DNA of 64,000 nucleotides, taken from contig NC_135241.1 in the NCBI RefSeq assembly GCF_947623445.1, positions 2,668,501 to 2,732,500 of the forward strand. The letters run 5' to 3'. Position 1 is the first letter of the stretch; the number at the start of each line of letters is the position of its first letter. Below the pieces are notes generated by a model that was not told the origin of the DNA, made no database searches, and saw nothing but the letters and a program-made list of their open reading frames with translations. Made by a program: the position numbers and the translations under genes. Source of the DNA: Clavelina lepadiformis (lineage: Eukaryota; Chordata; Ascidiacea; Aplousobranchia; Clavelinidae). Below are positions 6,224 through 20,686 of this stretch, piece by piece.

Positions 6224-6227
6224 TTAA

Positions 6228-6676
6228 GGGGTCACTTCCCAATACAAAGACAATTTTGTGCCGGCAACACAGTGATTGTGACCGTGTCGCACTAAATGCG
6301 TCATATTAAAAAAAGTAAAAATTTTTCGGTCCAATGCGCATGTGACGTCGATGTGGAGTAGTTCGTCGTTGCTTTGACGACAGCTGGTTCCAGGTCTAGG
6401 CTAAGTTGTAAATTTTGTGTGGGTTTGAATTTTTGGTTTTTTGGAGTATTTGTCATAAAATTTTAAGCTAAAAACTTGATGTAAAGTTTAGGCAATTGTT
6501 ATAGAAAACTGAGTACATGGATTTTGTCCAAATTAAGACTGTAGACAGACATAACCTAGGTCTCGTTGCAAGCCAAAATTCAGGGTAGGTTTATGATGTA
6601 GTTTTGCGTTGGTAGCTTCTTGATTTAATGTACTTTGCATTGAAAAGCCTATCTCTTTGAATTGGGACATGACCCC
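6228..6676 (+). mobile_element. piggyBac-like TTAA MITE, copy A
   Basis: A 449 bp non-autonomous element flanked by TTAA on both sides (6224-6227 and 6677-6680). It begins GGGGTCACTTCCCAAT and ends ATTGGGACATGACCCC, giving imperfect terminal inverted repeats. A TTAA target duplication is the hallmark of piggyBac-type transposition. Copies B (20238-20686) and C (16405-16864, inverted) are close relatives. No coding capacity. Confidence 0.88.
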
Positions 6677-6680
6677 TTAA

Positions 6681-7195
6681 GCAAATAACAGAAGTTTACT
6701 TTAGTACTTAAAATTTAGTTGAAACTAGCTTATAGTTAACTAGGAAACTCTAGTTTAACAAGGAACTGAACAAAATGGCAGCAAACATTAACATCTTACC
6801 CGTTACATAGTGGCAAATTTCTGCAATCGTTCAGTCGTGTTAAATACGTGAACGTGTTTAGTGCTAAATGTCAAAATAGCCAAGACAGATTACGAAACAA
6901 TGTTTATCAAAAACGCTTGATTTTTACGGTTGACTGACATTCGTATAAGTGATAATAGCTTACCGTTAGGTTGAGTGATTCAACAAAATGGTTCGCTCAT
7001 GTTAACCGCCACAAAAGCTTGTGACGCGCGAACGCTTCAATTCACCGTAGAGACGTAGGCGTAGCTAGGTCTCGAAATCAGCTTGATTTTCATCTAGACT
7101 ACGCTAGCTTGATTTTAATCTAGACTACGCTAACTTGAATTTCATCTAGACTACGCTAGCTTGATTTTCATCTAGACTACGTTAGCTTGATTGAA
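6681..7195 (+). repeat. Repeat X, copy 1 (full length), heads a tRNA-Ser array
   Basis: About 500 bp matching, as inverted sequence and with only scattered differences, the copy at 18868-19463. It begins exactly at the TTAA that ends MITE copy A. It finishes in 26-bp tandem units (TTTTCATCTAGACTACG core) at 7078-7190. A four-gene tRNA-Ser array follows in the same orientation, as it does for copies X2 and X3. No coding potential was seen. Confidence 0.85.
7078..7190 (+). repeat. 26-bp tandem repeat, about 4 units
   Basis: Units with the core CATCTAGACTACGCTAGC followed by TTGATTT. They form the tail of repeat X1. The reverse complement recurs at 18868-19065 (about 7 units), 16210-16290 and 17125-17160. 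The units are contiguous and there are no unique spacers, so this is not a CRISPR array. Confidence 0.85.
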
Positions 7196-7261
7196 ATTAT
7201 GTTTTCATAAGAGATTCGAGAAAAGTGCGATTTTATTTATTTGCATTGAACGTTAAGCACA

Positions 7262-7343
7262 GTTGTCGTGGCCGAGTGGTTAAGGCGACAGACTAGAAAT
7301 CTGTTGGGCTCTGCCCGCGTAGGTTCGAATCCTGCCCACAACG
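7262..7343 (+). tRNA. tRNA-Ser(AGA), array 1 gene 1
   Basis: An 82 nt class II tRNA with long variable arm (GGGC-TCT-GCCC), A box TGGCCGAGTGG and B box GGTTCGAATCC. The anticodon loop CTAGAAA gives AGA. The acceptor stem GTTGTCG/CCACAAC has one mismatch. A TTTT at 7360-7363 can terminate Pol III. It is the first of four genes repeated every 158 bp with near-identical spacers. Confidence 0.9.
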
Positions 7344-7419
7344 CGGAATTGAAATTATGTTTTCATAAGAGATTCGAGAAAAGTGCGATTTTATTTATTT
7401 GCATTGCACATTAAGCACA

Positions 7420-7501
7420 GTTGTCTTGGCCGAGTGGTTAAGGCGACAGACTTGAAACCTGTTGGGCTCTGCCCGCGTAGGTTCGAATCCCGCCGACAAC
7501 G
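7420..7501 (+). tRNA. tRNA-Ser(TGA), array 1 gene 2, weakened
   Basis: Same backbone as its neighbours with anticodon TGA. It has an acceptor-stem mismatch (GTTGTCT against CGACAAC) and an anticodon-stem mismatch next to the loop, so it may be a weak gene or an early pseudogene. Confidence 0.75.
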
Positions 7502-7577
7502 AGGAATTGAAATTTTGTTTTCATAAGAGATTCGAGAAAAGTGCGATTTAATTTATTTTCATTGAACATTAAGCACA

Positions 7578-7659
7578 GTTGTCGTGGCCGAGTGGTTAAG
7601 GCGACAGACTTGAAATCTGTTGGGCTCTGCCTGCGTAGGTTCGAATCCTGCCGACAACG
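7578..7659 (+). tRNA. tRNA-Ser(TGA), array 1 gene 3
   Basis: An 82 nt gene with a fully paired GTTGTCG/CGACAAC acceptor stem, a paired ACAGA/TCTGT anticodon stem and anticodon TGA. Both internal Pol III boxes are intact. This is one of the best-preserved copies in the window. Confidence 0.93.
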
Positions 7660-7735
7660 CGGAATTAAAATTATGTTTTCATAAGAGATTCGAGAAAAGT
7701 GCGATTTTATTTATTTGCATTGAACATTAAGCACA

Positions 7736-7817
7736 GTTGTCGTGGCCGAGTGGTTAAGGCGACAGACTAGAAATCTGTTGGGCTCTGCCCGCGTAGGTTC
7801 GAATCCTGCCGACAACG
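7736..7817 (+). tRNA. tRNA-Ser(AGA), array 1 gene 4
   Basis: An 82 nt gene with all stems paired, anticodon AGA and intact A and B boxes. An 8-bp satellite begins about 50 bp downstream. Confidence 0.93.
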
Positions 7818-7869
7818 CGGAATTGAAATTATGTTTCATAAGAGATTCGAGAAAAGCGCGATTTTATTT

Positions 7870-7986
7870 ACTAGAGTACTAGAGTGCTAGAGTGCTAGAG
7901 TGCTAGAGTGCTAGAGTGCTAGAGTGCTAGAGTGCTAGTGTGCTAGAGTGCTAGTGTGCTAGAGTGCTAGAGTGCTAGAGTACTAG
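7870..7986 (+). repeat. 8-bp satellite (GCTAGAGT)n, about 14 units
   Basis: Contiguous GCTAGAGT units, with GCTAGTGT and ACTAGAGT variants inside the array and at the ends. It lies just downstream of the last tRNA-Ser of array 1. Two other 8-bp-period arrays in the window also touch tRNA sequence. Confidence 0.95.
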
Positions 7987-8376
7987 TAAATCTCTTTGCT
8001 TTCAAGTGATGAAAGTACGGTAACCCTAATCATACTTAAGTAAACGCTCTGTGTTCAGGAAAAACTTCCAAGAATGGGACTCAAAATGGACCACAATACC
8101 GCCACCTGACGGTGTAAATTTTCTGAGATAAGAACCGAAAACGGAAACAATCTTCTTTATTTCTCAAGTTCATGTTCTCAGCCAAGTTACTTTGAACGAA
8201 TAAAACAAAACCGGAATTTTAGCGAGCTGGAATGTAACAATCTAAATGGAAAAAGTATCATTTCTTGACATCTTTTCAAGAACGACAGTTTGTTAACAAT
8301 CTTTTAACAACTTCCATTGAAAATAAGCTATTCATGAAAAAACGCAGTAATTTAAACAATGCGATGACAAACATGA

Positions 8377-11300
8377 TCAACTTTCAAGTATTTGACTTAT
8401 ATTACACGTCACAATCCAATCGGTGACGTCACGTACACGCTCATCACCCCAAATGACGTGGCGCGCGATTTGTCCGTAGGTCGTGTTTAGAACTGCCAGT
8501 TCCTTCAAACTTCTTTCTTCTTTGCCGTCCCAAGTTTTCAAATATCTGTCGGAAAATATCAGGAACTTAATCACTTATAGGGAGCAGTTTTAGCAAAAGT
8601 TTAGTGCAGTGGTGTAATTACTCGATTCATTGACTTGACTCGCTTCGAGTCACGTTTTTTGATGACTCCATTTTACTCGAGTCAAAGTCCAAATTGACCG
8701 AACGATTGTGAAGGCAAAAATGACAACTTTTTAAGAAATAAAAACGGATATTTTTCAAAACAGTTACAGCTGTCGGTAAAAGTTTTAACCGGTGATATGT
8801 AGACAGTAATGACGTAATAATGGCCAATTTAATGCTACGCATAACGTGACCTCAAAATATTTTTTACTTTAGAAGCATTGACTTGACTCGGCTCACAAAT
8901 TAAGTTAACTCGACTTTACACGAGTCACAACTCAAAATGAATCGACTTGAATCGATTCAGAGAAAAATGACTCAGTTTTAACTCTGGCTCCGTGTCAATT
9001 TTATGGAGAAATGCCGAAGCTCGGTAGCCTAAGCCCTGGCAAAAACCTGTTTTTCCCTATATTATTCCTATAGGCCCTAGGGCTATCTGTCATATCAGAG
9101 TCATTAACTATCATCATGAAATAAACGTAAGCTTCAAGCAAATAAGGAAATACATTCATAATTTTTACTGTTTTAAGTTAAACCCAATTCGTGCTTATGA
9201 CAAATATTAACAGTGCTTATAAGCAACTGAAAGTCTTGTTATAATAGGACACAGAGCACAAACATAAAAACAATCATCTAGAATTCAACATCCAAGGCAT
9301 GCGTTTCACCTGGCATATAGATGAAGAATATAGTTCTGATGCCAGTCGTATAGCTCGTGGAAAATATAAGAAAGTTCAGTCCAGTTCGGTCGACAAATAA
9401 GTTTCTTCACAACCTTAATCTTGTCCGGGAATAACTTCCAAATCGCCCAGGGGACAAGAACGGAGTTTTTGCCCCAACTTAAAACAAACGAAACCGCTCA
9501 AGCTAATTTACGAGATAGCCGACGGCCTAGTCCGCCATATACTCACTGTGCGTCAACGAAGTATTTGTATTCCCAGTACCACCGCTGGAGGAACCAAGAA
9601 TGGCGGTTGGCGAAAATCATTCCATTAGCTACAAAACGTTTGGACGAATAACGCACAGAGAAATAATAAAGAATTTTTTTTAATTCTTTGTTAGTTAGGC
9701 TAATGCTTTTAAATTTATCAAGGAAATGGGGAAATCACCTAAACAGTTGACATTTTCTTCACTCAAAGTCATTTCGTCCATTCGTAGTGAATCGACACTA
9801 CGCAGTACTATGCTGTCTGTGTCCAGATATATTCCACCGACTTCAAGCATTATTTGAAGCCTCGCCACATCAGCCCGATGCTCAACAACCTGAGAAAAAT
9901 CTTAATTCGGTTATTTCGATTTACTTGGACGTGAAAAAATAACTGTTTTGATTTGAACCGACCTTTATAGGAATTCCCCAAATCGTCAACGGAGGCGAGC
10001 GTTTGACGAGGCGCAGTGTTGCCCCGGCAATTTTTTTAAAAACAACCCAGTACTCGCTCTCTGGTTCACAGTCAGTGTGGAAAAGAATAAGTTTAGGATT
10101 CTGGTATCTAAAAGCTCCTAGCAGACTATATTATATATGTTCGTTAAGGTGTTTTCTTTGAGTGTCACGTGGTAAATTCGCTGTTCATTTAATACTCACG
10201 TGATGTAATGATCGACCCGAAATCTTCTGCATCCAAACCAAATAAAATGAACCAAGTTGGGAACCTTATATACCGTCTCGTTTTCCATTACGGCGACCAC
10301 TTCTTTTATCTGCAACCAACGTACAATCGAATTTTTTATTATAATTTTTCGAACGCTTTTGCGTGAATATATAAACAAACACAGCCCGAGAAGAAATGGG
10401 AAAGTGTTTGGTTATCGCGGTGACCGCTTTGTTCATAGGAAGGGCTGACTTGTATAATATTATTCATTCGCTATTTTCGGCGATCAGATAAAACGTAAAT
10501 CTTGAGATTTAAGCTGGTCATCGATTGCTTTAAGCCAACACAATAGCAGTGAGACGACCCATTTGTGTAGAACAAAAGAGTTTGTTTGCAGTTTTGGACG
10601 GCGAACACATTGAACGTATACGAACAACGGCGGGTTTATTGATATTTGTTTAGTTTAATTGCCATGGGCGTACCAAGAAAAGCTTCAATTTTCCTTAAAG
10701 TTTACCTGCAGTAGATCGTCGTCGCCGAGCGCGATTCTTCGCTTCCGTTCAATCTCGATGTTTTTTGCCATCGCTTTCATATCCACAACTTCTTTCACAT
10801 TACGCAGTTGGGTGTTTGGGTTCGGTTTCGGGAGATTCTAAACAAACAGACAAACAATAAACTTTTTCACGTGACTGTACAAATAAATGCAATGATAAAA
10901 GTATTTGAGACTTCAAACTCTTGGCTTGTGTACATTACTGTGTTACGTTGACAACAAAAAAGAAATGGTTTGGAAAGTTATCTTTTACGTTTGAGTCCTA
11001 AATCGAGAATGGTCATAGCTAGTAGTCATAATACACAACATTGCAAAAAGTATCCGACAAACTTCTACTTTAAACATAATAACCGGGGTCAAGTTTCGCG
11101 ATGACGTGATAATGTTGATTATTACCTCATAAGAACGCAAGGTTGGTGACACTGAGCTTTTCTTGCCGGGGTTGGCGTTCTTTGCCACAAATTCCCGAGC
11201 TAAATTGTCTTTGTACTCTGTCATTGATATTGTCTCATTTCCGATGCTGACATCAAACTCTTCGATGCTTGTGTCGCAGTTTTCATTTAAAATAATCCTC

Positions 11301-11512
11301 AATTTTTTCTCAGTGATAACTTTTCTTCTGCTGTCGCTAAAATTTCGGAAACTTTCCGTCTTGTTTTGATCCAAGGAAAAGTGTCGGGGTTCCAAAACCG
11401 TTTGATATTGACTGAAAGATTCGTTTCGCAGCGTTACCAGGAAAAGTGACCCCAACAAAAGTGCAACAAAGAAACAACAAAATAGGACGCGGGGTTTTGA
11501 GCTACCTTTCAT
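8377..11512 (-). CDS. GT32-type glycosyltransferase, A4GALT/A4GNT-like, 8 exons
   Basis: A predicted 453-residue type II Golgi enzyme. The exons are 11126-11512, 10706-10837, 10200-10309, 9963-10125, 9739-9889, 9547-9628, 9310-9477 and 8377-8545. All are bounded by AG/GT and in phase from an ATG at 11512 to a TGA at 8377-8379; one intron is only 69 bp. Residues 1-8 are basic, about 9-28 form a membrane anchor, and a stem region with N-glycosylation sequons follows. The catalytic part has PNLVHFIWFG, then LILFHTDCEP, then the nucleotide-sugar motif GGIYLDTDS with its DXD at about 287-289, then ANGMIFANRHS, NSVLVPWAIWKLFP, HELYDWHQNY and a C-terminal NTTYGQIARHV. Known members transfer alpha1,4-linked Gal or GlcNAc; acceptor and donor cannot be told here. 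The gene looks intact although it is enclosed by rearranged tRNA/repeat units. Confidence 0.9.
8608..8990. mobile_element. hAT-like short element rich in GACTCGAGTC motifs
   Basis: Lies in the last intron of the GT32 gene. It opens with CAGTGGTGTAATTACTCG and contains many GACTTGACTCG / CGAGTC words in both orientations. It closes with a degraded inverted counterpart of its start near 8985. No clear 8-bp target duplication was found, so the boundaries and family are tentative. A weaker relative (AAGTCAAGTCAAATC) is near 61540. Confidence 0.4.
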
Positions 11513-14247
11513 TATTCAGTCGACAGCTCAGTCGACAACACCAGTTGCTTGATTGTCAGCAAAGACAAACTTCGACAATTTATACTCCTAATAAAAACAT
11601 CATTTGATCGTAATTAAGTTGGCTTTTCTAGTTTGTTTGGGCAAAGTGTTTCTTCTGATCTGCAGGTTTTACAAAGACCTGTAATGAAATGTGGGTTAAT
11701 GGTAGTTGAACTTGACAGTTTGACCCACTTCATTACAATGTTTGCTGGTTGAATTGTTTATTGCGGTCAATGATATATGAGTCTCATAAGGTCGTTGTCT
11801 GCTTTTCTCAACCTTGGACTTAATTGTTCACCTTAACGAAGTATTGTCTTATGAAGATGACAACAAAGTTGTATACATTATTCCTTCTGTATATTTTAAT
11901 CTCTCCTTACCATCACAGACCTGTCACAGTCCATAAACACTTTATAACACTTATTAGTTAAATACTGGTCATACAAGCTAACTTCCCTGGGTAATAGAAG
12001 CTATTTTACTATTTACATAAATGCGAACATATAAGAATATGAACTTCATAACATGTACTACGCTTAGACAACCACGTGTTAATATATATTGGAGCGTTGC
12101 CAAGTTTTTCGTAGCTTCCCGGTCGTAGGCGCGCAATTTTTCTGTCCACACAGCGCAAATATAGATCCTGGCGACAACCAATTCCGTTTATGCTAATGTC
12201 GGATATGCAATTTCTTCTCAGAAGCTTTGAACATCTTTTTAAAAATAGGCATTAAAAGGAACTTAAGCGAGTAGAAGTATTCCTTCTGTTCCATTGGTAC
12301 TTTCAGCGCGAGCACCTTTCACGAAAACCTTGTCAATATTGGGCTTGTCTTATGCTTCAGGAAAAAAGAGAGAGACCAAAAAGATTGATGTTAGTTAAGT
12401 TTTTCGTTTATTTATCGTCTATTTTACCTGAATGGTCTATATACTCTATAAGACTCCATTTCCACTGGCGTTTTCAGAGCTTGCCTAAAATAAAACAAAT
12501 CCCTTTCAAATGACATGCTTTGTCGATAACTCTGACCTGTAACTGTAAGCTATATTGTGCGGCAGTTTGTGCTAGCCAGCCAGCGGTTGAAGATCAAACA
12601 CTACAGTTCAGTCGAATTTATCAACATAAAAAGATCGTTTTATCTCGTTATGGAAAGCACAACTAGATACATATCTTTATAGAATCGCGGCCTTTGGAAG
12701 CAATTACTTGGCTTCGCCCTTGTGACGCGATCACAAGACGAACAGACAGCAGAGAGTCAGTGTTATGTAGTTAAGAGTAAACTTCTGTTTTTGCTTGAAT
12801 TTCCAAGTGTCTTGTTTCTTAGCTTATATCGGTTTTCCGACTATAAGATGGCTCCAATCGCTGAAATCGCTCATTTTATTTCAAGTCAAACATTTTATTT
12901 ATTACAGAACCAGCAACATAAATAAACTTTCTGTCAGGAACAATAAGCTATAAATCTACACGCAGTATGATTGTGTATTTTTCTTTGTTTTTGACCAAAC
13001 GACAAGAAACCCTATTTCATTACCGATGACAAGGACACGCCCAAGTAATTTATTGACATATCTGGTTGTAAATTACATTTTTATAATTCTCCTATTGTAC
13101 CATGCTTTTTTCGCCCTTGTTTGGTTTTTGGAAGAAAATATGATTGTATTGCGTATTGCACAAATAACTCATTTCAAAGATATTCCTTGCCAATTTACGC
13201 TCCATTCGACGGTAGTAATAATTGTACCATTAATCTCTAAACTACAACACCGGCTGCATACAACGACAAGCGGCTAAGACCACTATATGACACATGTTTG
13301 TTTAAGACTGTTCAAAAAAACTAGAAAGATTTTGATAGTTGCTACGTGGAATCATTGGAATTAGGAATCCTTGTGTTGGAATACGTATGAAAGCAAAAAC
13401 AACTTGGTGAACTTATCTACTTGGCAAACAATAACATGATAGACGCTATCTACATGGTTGACAGGAAATCAAACAAACTTTAATCATCATGAAAAAAAAT
13501 CGAAACCTTAAAAGACTTGGTAAATATAAGTAATAGTGGACTGGATGTAAATAAAAACACGACCATTGAGAAAGTAGAGAAATTAAAACAGTTCCTTGAA
13601 TAGACCTCTGTCTCTTTATCGCCCGTAGCCTACATTCTATTACGCTACTGCTATTGGGGGCAACGCCTTTAACAACCATCCTTATAACGATGCACTCGAT
13701 CATAACCTATTCCAGAAAAAACATAAACCGGTAAAGATCTTCTAATTGTATCTAGATGAATGGAGACCAATAAAGGCCAGATAAATCAATCCTGTGCACA
13801 ACAGAAGCTCCTAAAAGTTAATTAAGAGCAAAGTAACAATTCAACCAACAAAAAATAACTGATGAACAAGAATTTAGCAACTAACCACCCCATTCGTCAA
13901 GGATTAGCTCATAGGAAAGGGAAAAGGAATGCACGGATTAGCCATTCGTATGAGCTGAAAGGAATAATTCCATTTTTTAAAACTATTTTACGTGTATTAT
14001 AAATATGTTGAACATTTTTCAGAATTATGCTCAAAGGCTGGCGAACAATTGTTTTCAGGAGATGATAAGGTACCAGATGATGCAAGAAGCACAAAACTTT
14101 TGTTAATACTGCTCTGGTTGTAAGTTGCCGAACATCCTCCCAGAGTTTGCAGGTTCAAAACCTTGTCCACCCACCTCCTGCTTTTCTTGCGAGATTGTAA
14201 GTTCGACTGCGTTAAAGTGCACAATAATATTGCAAAAACGCCCAAAG
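11513..14247. other. Intergenic, no gene recognised
   Basis: AT-rich sequence upstream of the GT32 start. Short open frames on both strands have no family signature or splice support. The GT32 promoter should lie within the first few hundred bases, but no element is recognisable. Confidence 0.5.
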
Positions 14248-14410
14248 TCCTAAAGCAATAAAGTCAAGATGCACAGAAAGCAGAGGGTGGGTGGGGGGAA
14301 GCTCATGGCGCAGTGGAAAAATCGGAGAACGTCGATCGACAAGCTGCAGGTTCAAACCAGCGAGCCGCAGAGCGACGAGTCAACAACCGTTTGATGACCA
14401 TTTGACCGTC
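14248..14410 (+). repeat. tRNA-derived SINE-like repeat, left arm of an inverted pair
   Basis: Contains a clear Pol III A box (TGGCGCAGTGG near 14306) and a B-box-like GGTTCAAACC about 45 bp further on, preceded by a G-rich run. An inverted copy lies at 15322-15486, so the two could pair over about 160 bp. The tail AACAACCGTTTGATGACC is shared by both. Confidence 0.65.
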
Positions 14411-14415
14411 TAGAC

Positions 14416-14694
14416 CAGGGATGTCTAACCTGCGGCCCGCCTGAGATTTTTGTTCGGCCCGCTAGTCATTTTCACTCCAAGTAGTATTTTGAACTTTCAA
14501 TCTTACCCTAATTAAAATGTACCAGTCAGCTTTTAGGGGTGCAGTAATAGTATAGTATGGTAGCAACAGGATTATATATAACTATAAGACTCGAAGATCT
14601 ACCCATTTTTCTTGAAATTTAATAGTTTCTGCGGCCCACTGAATTATTTCAAGTGACAATGCGGCCCACTACAATAAAAGGTTGGACATCCCTG
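14416..14694. mobile_element. hAT MITE inserted in a 28-bp tandem array
   Basis: 279 bp with inverted ends CAGGGATGTCTAACCTG and GGTTGGACATCCCTG. It contains the GCGGCCCGC/GCGGCCCAC words common near hAT termini. The flanks CTAGACCA and CTAGAACA look like an 8-bp duplication with one change. The insertion interrupts the TCTAGACCACCAGCTGG repeat array. Confidence 0.75.
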
Positions 14695-14696
14695 CT

Positions 14697-14862
14697 AGAA
14701 CACCAGCTGGCTAGACTCACGTCTAGACCACCAGCTGGCTAGACTCACGTCTAGACCACCAGCTGGCTAGACTCACGTTTAGACCACCAGCTGGCTTGAC
14801 TCACGTCTAGACCACCAGCTGGCTTGACTCACGTCTAGACCACCAGCTGGCTAGACTCACGT
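14697..14862 (+). repeat. 28-bp tandem repeat, about 6 units
   Basis: Units of ACCAGCTGGCTAGACTCACG plus TCTAGACC with few changes. A related array in inverted sense (GACGTGAGTCTGGCCAGCTGG, about 30 bp) lies at 15217-15320. Together they form part of the nested inverted structure between 14.2 and 17.0 kb. Confidence 0.88.
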
Positions 14863-14889
14863 AAATTCTGAGTATTTAGCTGCCGGAAG

Positions 14890-15069
14890 CTGTAAAAAAA
14901 GTTGCAAAAGTTGCAAAAACTTGCCCTACTAATCACCTAATCCTAATCCTAATCACTTACCTTATATAATATATATAGATATCTATATATAGATATAGTC
15001 AAAAGTAAAGCTAAAATTTATGAATTTCTTCACGTTTAAGGGGTCACTTCCCAATAAAACGACAATTTA
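14890..15069 (+). repeat. Inverted-repeat arm with a MITE end fragment (copy D)
   Basis: Reverse complement of about 16840-17005. It covers TTGCAAAAACTTGCCC, a CCTAAT-rich stretch, ATAGATATCTATATATAG and a flank ending CTTCACGT. Then come TTAA (15036-15039) and the first ~30 bp of the MITE (15040-15069), which is cut off by an AT dinucleotide run to about 15100. Confidence 0.8.
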
Positions 15070-15100
15070 CTATATATATAGTATATATATATATATATAG

Positions 15101-15190
15101 TATTAACTATAAGCTAGTTTCAACTAAATTTTAAGTACTAAAGTAAACTTCTGTTATTTGCTTAAACGTGAAGAAATTCATAAATTTTAG
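15101..15190 (-). repeat. X-end fragment with an empty TTAA site (X5)
   Basis: Carries the terminal ~60 bp of repeat X joined through a single TTAA (15162-15165) to ACGTGAAGAAATTC. At 16340-16890 the same two flanks are separated by MITE copy C with TTAA on each side. This stretch is therefore the pre-insertion or precisely excised version of that site. Confidence 0.85.
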
Positions 15191-15216
15191 TTGTGATGTT
15201 TTGTTGATGATGTTAA

Positions 15217-15320
15217 TTTTAGGTGGCCTACAGACGTGAGTCTGGCCAGCTGGTGGCCAACAGACGTGAGTCTGGCCAGCTGGTGGCCTACAGACGTGAG
15301 TCTGGCCAGCTGGTGGCCTA
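15217..15320 (-). repeat. 30-bp tandem repeat, about 3.5 units
   Basis: Units with core CAGACGTGAGTCTGGCCAGC alternating with TGGTGGCCTA. It is an inverted relative of the array at 14697-14862. Confidence 0.85.
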
Positions 15321-15321
15321 G

Positions 15322-15486
15322 ACAGTCAAATGGTCATCAAACGGTTGTTGGCTCGTCGCTCTGCGGCTCGCTGGTTTGAACCTGCAGCTTGTCTGTCGAC
15401 GTTCTCCGGTTTTTTCCACTGTGCTATAGGTTCCCCCCACCCACCCTATGCTTTCTGCGAATCTTGATTTTATTGCTTTAGTACTT
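15322..15486 (-). repeat. tRNA-derived SINE-like repeat, right arm of an inverted pair
   Basis: Inverted copy of 14248-14410: GGTTTGAACC is the B-box complement and CCACTGTGC the A-box region, followed by the C-rich complement of the G run. It ends beside tRNA-Ser array 2. Confidence 0.65.
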
Positions 15487-15539
15487 AAATAAAATCGCAC
15501 TTTTCGCAAATCACTTATGGAAGCGTGATTCCAATTCCG

Positions 15540-15621
15540 CGTTGTCGGCAGGATTCGAACCTACGCGGGCAGAGCCCAGCAGATTTCGAGTCTGTCGCCT
15601 TAACCACTCGGCCACGACAAC
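15540..15621 (-). tRNA. tRNA-Ser(CGA), array 2
   Basis: An 82 nt gene with paired acceptor stem and intact A and B boxes. The anticodon loop CTCGAAA gives CGA. One mismatch lies at the outer pair of the anticodon stem. The four array-2 genes repeat every 159 bp on the minus strand. Confidence 0.85.
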
Positions 15622-15698
15622 TGTGCTTAATGCATAGATGAAATAGTTAAAATGCCACATTTCCGAATATCCATATGAAATTGCAAAAGTAATATCTG

Positions 15699-15780
15699 CA
15701 TTGTCGGCAGGATTCGAACCTACGCGGGCAGGGCCCAATAGATTTCGAGTTTGTCGCCTTAACCACTCGGCCACGACAAC
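15699..15780 (-). pseudogene. tRNA-Ser(CGA)-like, degraded, array 2
   Basis: Keeps both boxes and anticodon CGA. The anticodon stem (ACAAA against TCTAT) has two mismatches and the acceptor end has a G-U pair. Probably a tRNA pseudogene. Confidence 0.7.
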
Positions 15781-15857
15781 TGTGCTTAATGCATAGATGA
15801 AATAGTTAAAATGCCACATTTCCGAATATCCATATGAAATTGCAAAAGTAATATCTG

Positions 15858-15939
15858 CATTGTCGGCAGGATTCTAACCTACGAGGGCAGGGCCCAACAG
15901 ATTTCGAGTCTGTCGCCTTAACCACTCGGCCACGACAAC
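15858..15939 (-). pseudogene. tRNA-Ser(CGA)-like with damaged B box, array 2
   Basis: The T-loop reads GGTTAGAATCC, losing the invariant C of the B box. The rest of the backbone and anticodon CGA are kept. Probably inactive. Confidence 0.7.
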
Positions 15940-16016
15940 TGTGCTTAATGCATAGATGAAATAGATAAAATCGCACTTTTCCGAATATCCATATGAAATT
16001 GCAAAAGTAATATCGG

Positions 16017-16098
16017 CGTTGTCGGCGGGATTCGAACCTACGCGGGCAGGGCCTAACAGATTTCAAGTCTGTCGCCTTAACCACTCGGCCACGACAAC
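16017..16098 (-). tRNA. tRNA-Ser(TGA), array 2
   Basis: An 82 nt gene with paired acceptor and anticodon stems, anticodon TGA and B box GGTTCGAATCC. The variable arm is slightly altered (AGGC-CCT-GCCC). It is the first gene of array 2 after repeat X3 in the minus-strand sense. Confidence 0.88.
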
Positions 16099-16141
16099 TG
16101 TGCTTAATGTGCAATGCAAATAGATAAAATGGCACTTTTCT

Positions 16142-16400
16142 CGAATCACTAGATAAATTCCACCATGTCGGTGTTTCCGGAATCTTCTCCTGACTTTCAA
16201 ATCTGACAAGATGAAAATGTAGCTAGCGTAGTCTAGATGAAAATCAAGCAAGCGTAGTCTAGATAAAAATCTAGCTAGGGTAGTCTAGATGAAAATCAAG
16301 CTGATTTCGAGACCTAGCTACGCCTACGTCTCTGTAGTGTATTAACTATAAGCTAGTTTCAACTAAATTTTAAGTACTAAAGTAAACTTCTGTTATTTGC
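16142..16400 (-). repeat. Repeat X, copy 3, internally deleted
   Basis: Contains 26-bp units, then the GAGACCTAGCTACGCC end of X joined directly to the terminal AACTATAAGCTAGTTTC end; about 300 bp of the middle is missing. It abuts the TTAA of MITE copy C. The first part (16142-16210) is directly repeated at 17050-17125. Confidence 0.8.
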
Positions 16401-16404
16401 TTAA

Positions 16405-16864
16405 GGGATCATGTCCCAATTCAAAGAGATAGGCTTTTCAATGCAAAGTACATTAAATCAAGAAGCTACCAACGCAAAACTACATCATAAACCTTCCCTG
16501 AATTTTGGCTTGCAACAAGACCTAGGTTATGTCTGTCTACAGTCTTAATTTGGACAAAATCCATGTACTCAGTTTTCTATAACAATTGCCTAAACTTTAC
16601 AACAAGTTTTTAGCTTAACATTTTATGACAAATACTCCAAAAAAACAAAAATTCAAACCCACACAAAATTTACAACTTAGCCTAGACCTGGAACCAGCTG
16701 TCGTCAAAGCAACGACGAACTACTCCACATCGACGTCACATGCGCATTGGACCGGAAAATTTTTCCTTTTTTTAATATGACGCATTGAGTGCGACACGGT
16801 CACAATCACTGTGTTGCCCGGCACAAAATTGTCGTTTTATTGGGAAGTGACCCCTTAAACGTGA
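16405..16864 (-). mobile_element. piggyBac-like TTAA MITE, copy C (inverted)
   Basis: A 460 bp copy in reverse orientation, flanked by TTAA at 16401-16404 and 16865-16868. One base in the first terminal run differs (GGGATCATGTCCC). It sits at the same position relative to repeat X as copy A. Confidence 0.87.
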
Positions 16865-17005
16865 AGAAATTCATAAATTTTAGTTTTACTTATGACTATA
16901 TCTATATATAGCTATCTATATATATTATATAAGGTAAGTGATTAGGATTAGGATTAGGTGATTAGTAGGGCAAGTTTTTGCAACTTTTGCAACTTTTTTT
17001 AGTTG
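16865..17005 (-). repeat. Inverted-repeat arm paired with 14890-15039
   Basis: Reverse complement of 14890-15039, including ATAGCTATCTATATATATTA and a GATTAGGATTAGG stretch. The two arms enclose array 2, X3 and MITE C and could form a very large hairpin. Confidence 0.8.
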
Positions 17006-17049
17006 CTAGCTTAATGCATAGATGAAATAGATAAAATGGCACTTTAATC

Positions 17050-17200
17050 GAATCACTAGATAGATTCCACCGTGTCGGTGTTTCCGGAATCTTCTCCTGA
17101 CTTTCAAATCTGACAAGATGAAAATGTACCTAGCGAAGTCTAGATGAAAATCAAGCTGATTTCGAGACCTAGCTACGCCTACGTCTCTGTAGTGTATCAG
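17050..17200 (-). repeat. Repeat X, copy 4, truncated by a satellite
   Basis: Repeats the TCCGGAATCTTCTCCTGAC flank and one 26-bp unit. It then carries the GAGACCTAGCTACGCC end of X and breaks off at 17200, where the 8-bp satellite begins. Confidence 0.8.
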
Positions 17201-17734
17201 CGACTCGGCGACTCGGCGACTCGGCGACTCGGCGACTCGGCGACTCGGCGACTCGGCGACTCGGCGACTCGGCGACTCGGCGACTCGGCGACTCGGCGAC
17301 TCGGCGACTCGGCGACTCGGCGACTCGGCGACTCGGCGACTCGGCGACTCGGCGACTCGGCGACTCGGCGACTCGGCGACTCGGCGACTCGGCGACTCGG
17401 CGACTCGGCGACTCGGCGACTCGGCGACTCGGCGACTCGGCGACTCGGCGACTCGGCGACTCGGCGACTCGGCGACTCGGCGACTCGGCGACTCGGCGAC
17501 TCGGCGACTCGGCGACTCGGCGACTCGGCGACTCGGCGACTCGGCGACTCGGCGACTCGGCGACTCGGCGACTCGGCGACTCGGCGACTCGGCGACTCGG
17601 CGACTCGGCGACTCGGCGACTCGGCGACTCGGCGACTCGGCGACTCGGCGACTCGGCGACTCGGCGACTCGGCGACTCGGCGACTCGGCGACTCGGCGAC
17701 TCGGCGACTCGGCGACTCGGCGACTCGGCGACTC
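17201..17734. repeat. Perfect 8-bp satellite (CGACTCGG)n, about 67 units
   Basis: 534 bp of uninterrupted CGACTCGG with no unit variants that I can see, implying recent expansion or continuing homogenisation. It ends about 12 bp from the 3' end of tRNA-Arg on the opposite strand. The unit is not a multiple of three, but a 24-bp superperiod keeps frames open; the apparent protein is not believed. Confidence 0.97.
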
Positions 17735-17745
17735 AGCTACTTAAT

Positions 17746-17819
17746 CATCCCTGCCGGGATTCGAACCCGGAACCTCTGGATTAGAAGTCCAGCGCGCTAA
17801 TCCATTGCGCCACAGAGAC
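17746..17819 (-). tRNA. tRNA-Arg(TCT)
   Basis: A 74 nt gene with A box TGGCGCAATGG, anticodon loop ACTTCTAAT (TCT), B box GGTTCGAATCC, and paired acceptor, anticodon and T stems. No run of four T follows; the (GCCGAGTC)n satellite begins about 12 nt after its end on this strand. Confidence 0.93.
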
Positions 17820-18008
17820 AAACTCATACCAAGATTTAACATTTTCACCCTTTAAAAAACAATCCAACCTAGAAAGTTGGAAAAAATTACTTGATCAAAC
17901 CGTTTTTGAACTAAGACATAAGTTTCTCAATGTTCGATTTTACTATCCGCTTCAATGCATTCCGACACAAAGTTAGCATATATGTGAAGTAAAACTTTCC
18001 AAAGATAC

Positions 18009-18126
18009 TGTCAGAAGTGGAATTCGAACCCACGCCTCTATTCGGAGACCAGAACACCCTATAGCCGCACAAAGCGACTAAGTCTCTGCTTGAGTCTGGC
18101 GCCTTAGACCACTCGGCCATCCTGAC
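18009..18126 (-). tRNA. tRNA-Leu(CAA) with 34-nt intron
   Basis: A 118 nt gene beginning GTCAGGATGGCCGAGTGG, with anticodon CAA followed by a ~34 nt intron at the usual site one base after the anticodon. It resumes TTCTGGTCTCCG and ends TTCTGACA. The layout matches the conserved intron-containing tRNA-Leu(CAA) of animals. Confidence 0.93.
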
Positions 18127-18408
18127 TTCGATGTTTTGTATTCATCTTCGTTCTTATAATACTTAACACAAAACCAGGAAAAGGCTGAATTTAGCACTAA
18201 TATCACGGTTGTTTTTACTCGTGGCTGTATAAAATTCACAGATGCATGCAACGATGTTTAATCGAGGATAAATACAACGAAGCAGGCCAAGTTGTTTCAT
18301 TCTAGTTTCACTTTATGGAAGACGTAGACGATGATGTTAACGGTATGCTCAATTTAGGATGAAACTATGTACAGTTAAGTGATAAGATTTTAAAAGTATT
18401 AAGCCAAT

Positions 18409-18455
18409 CATCCCTGCCGGGACTCGAACCCGGAACCTCTGGATTAGAGGTCCAG
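18409..18455 (-). pseudogene. tRNA-Arg(CCT)-like 3' half
   Basis: Matches the 3' half of tRNA-Arg from the anticodon stem (anticodon CCT) to the discriminator, with an intact T arm. The 5' half is replaced by TTAGCTAG repeats. Confidence 0.85.
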
Positions 18456-18480
18456 TTAGCTAGTTAGCTAGTTAGCTAGT
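18455..18480. repeat. 8-bp repeat (GTTAGCTA)n, 3 units
   Basis: Three GTTAGCTA units lie exactly at the break of the truncated tRNA-Arg. This is the third 8-bp-period array beside a tRNA in this district. Confidence 0.85.
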
Positions 18481-18509
18481 ACTCAACATTACCCATTAAC
18501 ATTATCATT

Positions 18510-18557
18510 ACCCAACAGATTTCGAGTCTGACGCCTTAACCGCTAGGCCAAGAAAAC
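18510..18557 (-). pseudogene. tRNA-Ser-like 5' half
   Basis: Carries the degraded 5' portion of the tRNA-Ser backbone (TTTTCTTGGCCTAGCGG start) up to the anticodon stem with CGA. The 3' half is absent. Confidence 0.7.
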
Positions 18558-18641
18558 TATGCTTAATGATTTATGTATAAAGGAAATCATTAAAGTGGCA
18601 CTTTTCTCAATATACTTGTTAATTTGTAAAATTAATATCGC

Positions 18642-18723
18642 CGTTGTCGACAGGATTAGAATCTATGCGGGCGGAGCCCAACAGATTTCTAGTCTGTCGC
18701 CTTAACCACTCGGCCACGACAAC
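18642..18723 (-). pseudogene. tRNA-Ser(AGA)-like with altered T arm
   Basis: Full-length 82 nt with anticodon AGA and paired acceptor stem. The T-loop/B box is changed (GATTCTAATCC) and the variable arm is altered, so activity is doubtful. Confidence 0.65.
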
Positions 18724-18800
18724 TGTGCCTAATGTTCAATGCAAATAAATAAGATCGCACTTTTCCTAATATCCATATGAAATTGCAAAAGTAATATCGG

Positions 18801-18856
18801 CGTTGTCGGCAGGATTCGAACCTACGCGGGCAGAGCCCAACAGATTTCATGTCTGA
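18801..18856 (-). pseudogene. tRNA-Ser 3' half fused to repeat X2
   Basis: Intact T arm and acceptor 3' strand. The sequence breaks after the anticodon region, which has mutated to ATG, and runs into the 26-bp repeats of X2. Confidence 0.75.
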
Positions 18857-18867
18857 CTTTCAAATCT

Positions 18868-19463
18868 TACAAGATGAAAATCTAGCTAGCGTAGTCTAGA
18901 TGAGAATCTAGCTAGCGTAGTCTAGATGAAAATCAAGCTAGCGTAGTCTAGATGAAAATCAAGCTAACGTAGTCTAGATGAAAATCAAGCCAGCGTAGTC
19001 TAGATGAAAATCTAGCAAGCGTAGTCTAGACGAAAATCTAGCCAACGTAGTCTAGATGAGAATCAAGCTGATTTCGTGACCTAGCTACGCCTACGTCTCC
19101 ACGGTGAATTGAACCGTTCGCGCGTCACAAGGTTTTGTGGCGGTTAACATGAGCGAACCATTTTGTTGAATCACTCAACCTAACGGTAAGCTATTACCAC
19201 TTATAGGAATGTCAGTCAACCGTAAAAATCAAGCGTTTTTGATAAAAATTGTTTCGTATTCTGTCTTGGCTATTTTGACATGTAGCACTAAACACGTTCA
19301 CGTATTTAACACGACTGAACGATTGCAGAAATTTGCCACTATGTAATGGGTAAGATGTTAACGTTTGCTGCCTTTTGTTCAGTTTCTTGTTAAACTAGAG
19401 TTTCCTAGTTAACTATAAGCTAGTTTCAACTAAATTTCAAGCACTAAAGTAAACTTCTGTTAT
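18868..19463 (-). repeat. Repeat X, copy 2 (full length, inverted)
   Basis: Near-identical reverse complement of 6681-7195, with a longer array (about 7) of the 26-bp unit at 18868-19065. The outer end stops within a base or two of where copies 1 and 3 meet TTAA and a MITE; here the flank reads TTTAGTTTGAC and there is no MITE. Confidence 0.87.
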
Positions 19464-20237
19464 TTACTTTAGTTTGACTTACTGTTAACCTAAGCGCCTA
19501 TATTTGAAAATATATCGTTCCGGTTCATTTTTATGCAGAGTTCAAATTAAATTCCAAAAGTTTTCAAAATCTGCCTTCAACAACATTACCTTCTAAAAGT
19601 ATGAAACTAAAGACTTCCAGTAATTATATTTATTGTAATGGGAAAAGCTGAAACAAAGCAGTTGAATAATTGTAGCTGTCTCACAAAACGCGTATAAGTG
19701 TTGCGTCATAACAATGGTGCACGAAATACAACAAGAAATGGGAGCGGTGAAATGATAACTAAACGAAAGTAGCAGTTTTTGTTCCTGCTTACTTGGCAAG
19801 TATAATATCCAGTTAGTTGGCGACCTAGCCAGTACCAACTGTTTGAGTGAAGCAGTTGAGCACCGAGGCAGGGTTGTTAACAAGTAAGTTTTTTTACTCT
19901 TTTTTGAGCCATTCCAGCACTGCCAGAAGATCTAAGCTATTGTTAACTATACAAGAGCAATGCCATGGGAAGAAATTTGAAAAAACAATTCACTTTAAAA
20001 AGTAATATTCGTCAGCAGTGTTTTTGAAATGTAGCCTACAGGGTAATCTGTAAAGTTTGCCGCCTCTAGAACTTTTTTTTCGGGGTGACGTTCTAGATCT
20101 AGTTATTGGGCCCACATTCAGAGTCTGGCCTCCTCTACCGACGGCGCCAATTGCATCTTCGTTGGGAGTAGTTTCCAACGGTAACCGTGTGTCATCCGGG
20201 TGTTTTCCGCCGGGACGGGTCGACCTGCGGAGCTTAA

Positions 20238-20686
20238 GGGGTCACTTCCCAATAAAACGACAATTTTGAGCCGGCAACACAGTGATTGTGACCGTGTCGC
20301 ACTCAATGCGTCATATTAAAAAAAGTAAAAATTTTCCGGTCCAATGCGCATGTGACGTCGATGTGGAGTAGTTCGTCGTTGCTTTGACAACAGCTGGTTC
20401 CAGGTCTAGGCTAAGTTGTAAATTTTGTGTGGGTTTGAATTTTTGTTTTTTTGAAGTATTTGTCATAAAATTTTAAGCTAAAAACTTGTTGTAAAGTTTA
20501 GGCAATTGTTATAGAAAACTGAGTTAATGGATTTTGTCCAAATTAAGACTGCAGACAGACATAACCTAGGTCTTGTTGCAAGCCAAAATTCAGGGTAGGT
20601 TTATGATGTATTTTTGCGTTGGTAGCTTCTTGATTTAATGTACTTTGCATTGAAAAACCTGTCTCTTTGAATTGGGACATGACCCC
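20238..20686 (+). mobile_element. piggyBac-like TTAA MITE, copy B
   Basis: 449 bp, the same length and orientation as copy A, flanked by TTAA at 20234-20237 and 20687-20690. Its neighbours are unrelated to repeat X, so this is an independent insertion. Confidence 0.88.

Follow-up and report, generated by a model that had tools for sequence, protein, structure and literature searches.

Arrays of serine tRNA genes in Clavelina lepadiformis as probable cargo of a KolobokP-like composite DNA transposon

Introduction

The numbers of tRNA genes in a genome are usually attributed to selection on translation or to decay of the kind seen in short interspersed nuclear elements (SINEs). Here, we analyze a stretch of 64,000 nucleotides from the ascidian Clavelina lepadiformis (hereafter, the window; C2:2668501-2732500 in an assembly of 209 Mb and 95 contigs), in which three copies of a sequence called X (X1, X2, and X3) lie 5' of serine tRNA (tRNA-Ser) genes, together with related loci elsewhere in the same genome. 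We describe the anatomy of five loci at which units composed of a 449-bp terminal direct repeat, X, and tRNA-Ser genes are enclosed by repeat termini and matching 4-bp sites, as well as multimers of such units, a solo repeat with a TTAA duplication, chimeric repeats inside an array, and a nuclease frame in one member of the family. We consider it probable that X and the tRNA-Ser arrays are carried as internal cargo by a composite DNA transposon that is KolobokP-like and non-autonomous. Such an element appears to have spread whole tRNA arrays over five chordate chromosomes.

Results and Discussion

Three X Subtypes and Their tRNA-Ser Genes in the Window

X1 (6681..7192, + strand) is made up of the modules XA, XB, and XC followed by a 26-bp minisatellite, and it starts directly after the TTAA that closes a 449-bp terminal direct repeat (LTDR-like; 6228..6676, +) with the inverted ends GGGGTCA..TGACCCC. 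The limits of this repeat at the 5' edge of X1 were set by eye, by a repeat search, and from a listing of edges; TTAA stands on both sides of it (6224-6227 and 6677-6680), and the DNA outside is non-array sequence. X1 is followed by four tRNA-Ser genes (anticodons AGA, TGA, TGA, and AGA; 7262..7818, +) in 158-bp units, placed, like the other tRNA-Ser genes of the window, with ARAGORN and Rfam. The whole reads repeat-X-tRNA-Ser (×4) and is cut by a satellite of the octamer CTAGAGTG (7871..7986, +), which ends the unit without a second terminal repeat.

X3 (16102..16401, − strand) consists of XA, a partial XC, the 26-bp minisatellite, and a leader, and lacks the 270-bp middle part (XB) that the module map shows in X1 and X2. 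It belongs to an internal unit. On one side lies a terminal direct repeat (16406..16854, −) with TTAA at both ends, placed between X3 and a tail segment (16855..17001, −) that is the end of the upstream unit; on the other side is a unit-to-unit junction without a terminal repeat (15103..15195, −), composed of tail, a single TTAA, and XA, in which the module map shows an extra piece of X (15103-15163). Between these limits are four tRNA-Ser genes (TGA, CGA, CGA, and CGA; 15539..16098, −) in 159-bp units and the 3' part of the unit (15222..15480, −), that is, a 30-bp minisatellite and a module found 3' of many tRNA-Ser arrays. At both X1 and X3, the 449-bp repeat is joined via TTAA to the 5' end of X.

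X2 (18872..19469, −), again XA, XB, XC, and the 26-mer, represents a longer subtype. Alone among the three copies in the window, it carries a 488-bp 5' extension (19464..19951, −; relatives on C3, C5, C6, C7, and C8), upstream of which lie exon-like sequence (20037..20237, −; 95% identity to locus L042) and, bordering the X2 block on the outside, a terminal direct repeat of its own (20238..20686, +) in the orientation opposite to X2. The tRNA-Ser sequences 3' of X2 (18511..18855, −) comprise one intact gene (18642-18723) and two truncated copies, at 18511-18557 and 18800-18855.

A preliminary description of the window had placed tRNA-Ser arrays at these three sites with X 5' of them on the same strand, which holds for X1, X2, and X3, and had recognized X1 and X2 as inverted repeats, which they are (420 bp, 95% complementary, 11.8 kb apart). 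Its further proposal, that a single unit had been triplicated around an intact GT32 gene, was not borne out. The three X copies are three subtypes, each belonging to, or derived from, a repeat-X-tRNA-Ser family; the window looks inverted because several such members, in part decayed, lie in opposite orientation, not because one segment was copied three times. The GT32 label was not confirmed, as four frames from 8-14.6 kb gave no glycosyltransferase match in Pfam, although this is weak negative evidence because exons were not modeled. A single repeat insertion common to X1, X2, and X3 was also rejected, since the X2 repeat points the other way and solo-class variants are present in the X1 repeat.

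X Is Mostly Followed by tRNA-Ser Genes Across the Genome

Genome-wide searches with short patterns, each controlled with the reversed pattern, gave 162 occurrences of XA at up to 3 mismatches (68 + 94) and 1341 of a tRNA-Ser 31-mer at up to 2 mismatches (876 + 465), with none for either reversed control, which is well above what chance would give. Among 50 XA copies examined, 6 could not be judged (the sequence ends first), and 41 of the 44 judgeable copies have tRNA-Ser on their 3' side, on the same strand and within 1.5 kb; two of the other three have it at 1502 and 2563 bp, and one has none. Seen from the tRNA side, XA lies 5' in 39 of 55 tRNA-Ser clusters, and the 16 clusters that lack it include the arrays L036, L040, L045, and L046 and a solitary tRNA-Ser(AGA) in other DNA (L044). 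It should be noted that the sample is biased, the loci having mostly been picked by a match to X or tRNA-Ser, and that L033 and L034 (same DNA as the window) and bases 1-1900 of L026 (overlapping L025) were dropped before counting.

The association asked about in the preliminary description is found nearly throughout this sample when one starts from X, and clusters without XA are common when one starts from tRNA-Ser. X copies widespread in places free of tRNA-Ser, which had been named beforehand as speaking against it, were not seen in this biased sample. Of the two options in the preliminary description, segmental duplication with inversion and joint movement or amplification of X and the tRNA array, the second is favored by the genome-wide evidence, with the correction that the unit is larger and includes the terminal direct repeat, which that description did not list. 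X as an element mobile on its own was rejected, as no terminal inverted repeats or target duplications of its own were seen and its 5' breakpoints vary.

A search with the 488-bp extension of X2, in which all 37 candidates were scored, yielded ten long matches, eight of which were read: six are accompanied by tRNA-Ser (window X2, L020, L021, L022, L023, and L038) and two are not (L024 and L042); two more matches lie on C3. Upstream of X, two contexts are found, a nuclease region (L018) and exon-like sequence (X2, L022, and L042). X may be the flank found 3' of a host gene, given that L024 and L042 have exon-like sequence upstream and no tRNA, but L018 has the nuclease region instead. A stitched exon peptide had no Pfam match above the cut-off. 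A short first-exon-like sequence changes sides relative to the X block between two loci (L021:5720-5915 and L020:8513-8708), lying 5' in one and 3' in the other.

Five Loci Are Bounded by Repeat Termini and Matching 4-bp Sites

The terminal repeat is 449 bp long and has the ends GGGGTCACTTCCCAATACAAAGA and GGGGTCATGTCCCAATTCAAAGA. Its junction with X (up to 3 mismatches) occurs 91 times, in 13 clusters on C2, C3, C6, C7, and C8, with no occurrence of the reversed control. Several of the clusters are regular tandem arrays (positions in Mb): the largest has 29 repeat-X junctions (C2:2.049-2.111), and others have 19 junctions spaced ∼2158 bp apart (C8:1.655-1.694), 11 (C8:15.98-16.007), and 10 (C7:19.02-19.04).

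Both outer edges were read in six clusters, and in five of these each edge is a repeat terminus and the 4-bp flanks match, such that the left end of a repeat opens the locus, the right end of a repeat closes it, and non-array DNA lies outside. The five comprise a single 3.3-kb unit at C8:17.76 (L047), the 19-junction array at C8:1.65, and the array at C8:15.98-16.007, all flanked by TTAA/TTAA, as well as C7:19.02 (TTCA/TTCA) and C2:24.63 (TAAA/TAAA). Counting every edge read, intact repeat ends are present at 6 of 10 left edges and 5 of 6 right edges; at C2:2.11, C3:21.50, and C6:18.37, tail sequence precedes the first junction up to the end of the stretch examined. Solo repeats have the same kind of flanks: L055 is bordered by TTCA/TTCA, and a solo repeat in a tRNA-Ser spacer of L046 is bordered by TTAA/TTAA, with L045 providing the uninterrupted spacer with a single TTAA.

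This geometry bears on a rival account in which a tRNA-Ser cluster simply underwent segmental duplication and unequal crossing over, X and the repeat being passengers and distal exchange being frequent. Breakpoints placed at random would not fall on repeat termini and matching 4-bp sites on both sides of five loci, and we regard this account as improbable, even though it would accommodate the longer common flanks and varying breakpoints of X2, L020, L021, and L023, the left edges (4 of 10) that are not intact repeat ends, the arrays without a repeat between units, and the distal location of the repeat-X clusters. For all 13 of these, the distance to a chromosome end is 1.4-4.2 Mb (simulated P ∼0.0002 for the mean, a pattern noticed post hoc); dispersal may owe something to a preference for distal regions or to survival there.

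Collapsed or misjoined repeats in the assembly could in principle produce both arrays and an inverted layout, and near-identical long arrays are the hardest to assemble. The published assembly report, however, gives 117-fold PacBio HiFi coverage, a quality value (QV) of 67.4, and curation (PMC10884593), units within arrays differ in length and sequence, array edges enter non-array DNA, and the single unit of L047 measures 3.3 kb compared with library fragments of 12-20 kb (PMC10884593), so that we consider an artefact very improbable.

Identity of the repeat as a piggyBac miniature inverted-repeat transposable element was rejected: its ends begin GGGG, whereas the inverted ends of piggyBac begin CCYT (PMC10175614). 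A Helitron or DINE-like element, suggested by the octamers and CTAG motifs, was dropped because the ends and the 4-bp duplications point elsewhere.

Exchange Between Repeats and Probable Movement as a Bounded Unit

Repeat copies are 98-100% identical within arrays and 96% identical between loci. In the C8:1.65 array, the internal repeats combine the left part of the right-edge repeat with the right part of the left-edge repeat, a chimeric structure that is the signature of unequal exchange between two flanking repeats. The outer parts of the edge repeats carry array-specific variants at C8:1.65 (left), C2:24.63, and C8:17.76, as seen in a display of 31 of the 40 full-length copies (nine were left out); at both edges of C7:19.02 and the right edge of C8:1.65, the variants are not informative. 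We take the outer variants to favor movement as a bounded unit over exchange with an unrelated resident repeat, although gene conversion could mimic them.

It is here that the main rival has to be weighed, namely, recombination between resident repeats: solo repeats would insert with 4-bp duplications, a circular or broken unit would later recombine there and expand, and the unit would never transpose whole. This account predicts the same outer geometry and the same matching 4-bp sites. The repeat-end pattern is present at 415 places genome-wide, and solo repeats are themselves mobile; a circle route is among the models proposed in PMC9587614. In the X1 repeat, solo-class variants extend along most of the sequence, which would be expected had X been joined to a resident repeat through exchange close to the repeat's 3' end, and X1 may for this reason have arisen by exchange. 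The array-specific variants in the outer edge repeats of C8:1.65, C2:24.63, and C8:17.76 run counter to recombination only, since they would not be expected in an unrelated resident repeat unless placed there by gene conversion, and on balance we judge it unlikely as the sole explanation.

An I-PpoI-like Nuclease Frame in One Array

At C1:26.05, the succession of repeat, a 115-aa open frame, X, and tRNA-Ser is found three times, the second and third repeats being 45 bp short at their start. In Pfam, the frame hits PF05551 (42.6 bits against a cut-off of 27), and its best PDB match is the homing endonuclease I-PpoI (E = 0.0019). Residues S97, H98, H110, E114, and N119 of I-PpoI, the importance of which is noted in PMC9587614, are kept in the alignment, as counted by eye. 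No match to the frame was found at any other examined locus.

PF05551 itself has at least 150 matches in the genome at E ≤ 1, a scan in which 150 of the 159 candidates were scored; 14 control genomes gave none. Frames resembling His-Me endonucleases form tandem arrays at C5:14.56-14.72, C6:15.93-15.97, and C2:2.193-2.230 Mb, mostly at a spacing of 1657 or 2110 bp; the frames at these three sites have one stop each, and many score below or near the Pfam cut-off. At C4:6.079-6.087 Mb, three open frames of this type lie 4112 bp apart. These other arrays are likely further KolobokP-like multimers, and because many PF05551 matches lie in them, KolobokP-like elements may be common in the genome.

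Relation to KolobokP and Other Systems

In the excerpted account of KolobokP (Kojima and Bao, 2022; PMC9587614), the elements have direct terminal repeats of ∼450 or 660 bp with inverted ends of their own of up to 18 bp, 5'-RR/YY-3' termini, and TTAA-like target duplications of 3-5 bp. They occur as solo repeats, as monomers, and as multimers sharing repeats, with INT-INT junctions that lack a repeat, and they encode a DDD/E transposase in autonomous members and an I-PpoI-like nuclease. The Clavelina family resembles them in its 449-bp direct repeats with short inverted ends, in its GG..CC termini with TTAA (three times), TTCA, and TAAA at the five bounded loci, in occurring as solo repeats (L055 and L046), a monomer (L047), and multimers (C8:1.65 and C7:19.02), in the unit-to-unit junction without a repeat in the window, and in the I-PpoI-like His-Me nuclease, which is present in one Clavelina array only (C1:26.05, three copies). 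It differs in its INT, which consists of X and tRNA-Ser arrays, a cargo that the excerpt does not mention for KolobokP, in its tunicate host, the only chordate hosts named in the excerpt being lancelets (Branchiostoma), and in the presence of up to 29 repeat-X junctions at one locus. The Clavelina family probably works like KolobokP and is probably a non-autonomous branch of it with tRNA-Ser cargo.

The 158/159-bp units stand head to tail, as in a tandem tRNA gene array. A SINE or other tRNA-derived retroposon has a single tRNA-related head with a retroposed tail, and this identity was rejected, given complete tRNA arrays, shared spacers, and DNA-transposon-like ends. Maize Ac/Ds macrotransposons are similar in that two linked transposon ends mobilize the DNA between them, but they span as much as 100 kb, most of it retrotransposon DNA, and the excerpted source does not mention tRNA arrays (PMC3260210). 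The tRNA arrays of Entamoeba share the tandem tRNA units, the short tandem repeats between them, and a very high copy number, but belong to a protist and contain most tRNA species, and no transposon bounds are described in the portion of the source consulted (PMC2652664). Helenus long terminal repeat (LTR) retrotransposons likewise inflate the predicted tRNA gene count, but there, according to the excerpt, the tRNA-like sequence is the retroelement LTR and not a complete tRNA array inside a DNA transposon (PMC10886601). Among the open-licence literature matches listed, no case of tRNA genes carried by composite transposons was found.

For a KolobokP-like transposon with tRNA-Ser cargo, a single element would have the structure LTDR-X-tRNA-Ser-tail-LTDR between matching 4-bp sites (TTAA, or TTCA or TAAA), and unequal exchange between its two direct repeats would convert it into (LTDR-X-tRNA-Ser-tail)n-LTDR arrays. 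New loci could be founded in two ways, through mobilization from the ends of two repeats acting together as a single transposon or through recombination between a unit and a solo repeat already in place. The presumed mover would be a Kolobok-type transposase, the I-PpoI-like nuclease would drive repeat-repeat exchange, and many of the array tRNAs would be functional.

A number of observations weigh against such a transposon. No transposase was linked to the repeat family, although no search for a Kolobok transposase was made. Four of the 10 left edges do not fit: those at C8:3.06 (L025), C7:17.38 (L048), and C2:22.43 (L050) start inside a unit without a repeat, and that at C6:1.706 (L058) is a truncated repeat. 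X1, the sixth cluster with two edges, has repeat and TTAA on the left and the octamer satellite on the right with no 3' repeat, the edge repeats of X2 and C3:22.4 are oriented opposite to their arrays, and the left-edge repeat of C1:26.05 has TTGA outside, with only repeat fragments further right. Regarding the 4-bp sites, only the TTCA and TAAA pairs are informative, because TTAA (three of the five matches) is the expected target. A paralog of the C8:1.65 flanks ∼4.6 kb upstream, from which the array is absent, has ∼38 bp between the flanks, so that the insertion was either imprecise or followed by changes at the site. Within arrays, C2:24.63 contains a 10.4-kb stretch without a repeat-X junction, the arrays of L037 and L039 consist of XA and tRNA-Ser with no repeat between units, and for C2:24.63, C7:19.02, C8:1.65, and C8:15.98 the reading covered only parts of the array interior. 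X stands in two upstream contexts, and within C8:1.65 and L046 the tRNAs are no better conserved than the spacers.

Anticodons and Conservation of the tRNA-Ser Genes

From 213 tRNA-Ser hits, 186 were full length (spanning positions 3-80), and 182 were kept after removal of overlaps. A serine NGA anticodon is present in 172 of them (CGA in 90, TGA in 56, and AGA in 26). Position 34 is the most variable of the 82 sites, and the neighboring anticodon positions are nearly fixed (G at 35 in 173 and A at 36 in 180 of the 182 copies). In comparisons between 24 regions, with at most three copies sampled per region, identity is 92.5% for the tRNAs versus 80.4% for the spacers, and the tRNAs are the better conserved part in 97.8% of the 276 pairs of regions; among the 58 pairs whose spacers are similar, the figure is 90%. 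The pattern suggests constraint or selective conversion acting on many copies.

The remaining 10 of the 182 copies are tRNA-Ser bodies with non-serine anticodons (TAA, CAA, TGC, AAA, ACA, TTG, and TTA), located in L014-L016, L036, L037, L040, L045, and L046; they are possibly mistranslating tRNAs, or possibly products of decay. More tentatively, and with opinion close to evenly divided, we propose that the transposon captured complete tRNA-Ser genes and propagates them as tandem arrays in its interior, that selfish amplification through transposition and nuclease-promoted exchange sets their copy number, and that their anticodons drift among those for serine, with a few becoming non-serine, which would make the arrays a source of isoacceptor change or mistranslation. 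If true, this would constitute a route for fast, selfish change of tRNA gene dosage and anticodon sets, extend KolobokP to tunicates, and provide a natural case in which transposition can be separated from homing-nuclease-driven exchange.

Other Features of the X2 Block and Octamer Satellites

The minus strand between the X3 and X2 units holds a piece of another unit composed of leader, 26-mer, and XC (17009..17188), a tRNA-Arg(TCT) identified with ARAGORN and Rfam (17745..17820), and a tRNA with an intron-sized insertion (18009..18126; Rfam 43.8 bits), read by eye as tRNA-Leu(CAA). The tRNA-Arg is accompanied on its 3' side by an octamer satellite (17200-17734). Satellites of this kind (CTAGAGTG, GCGACTCG, TAACTAGC, and others; the longest seen with 326 copies) follow tRNA-Ser or tRNA-Arg genes on their 3' side, in the window at this site and at 7871-7986, and also in L017, L018, L020, L021, and L023. 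At L029:360-4413, seven tandem tRNA-Arg(TCT) units of ∼663 bp share homology with the Arg portion of the X2 block.

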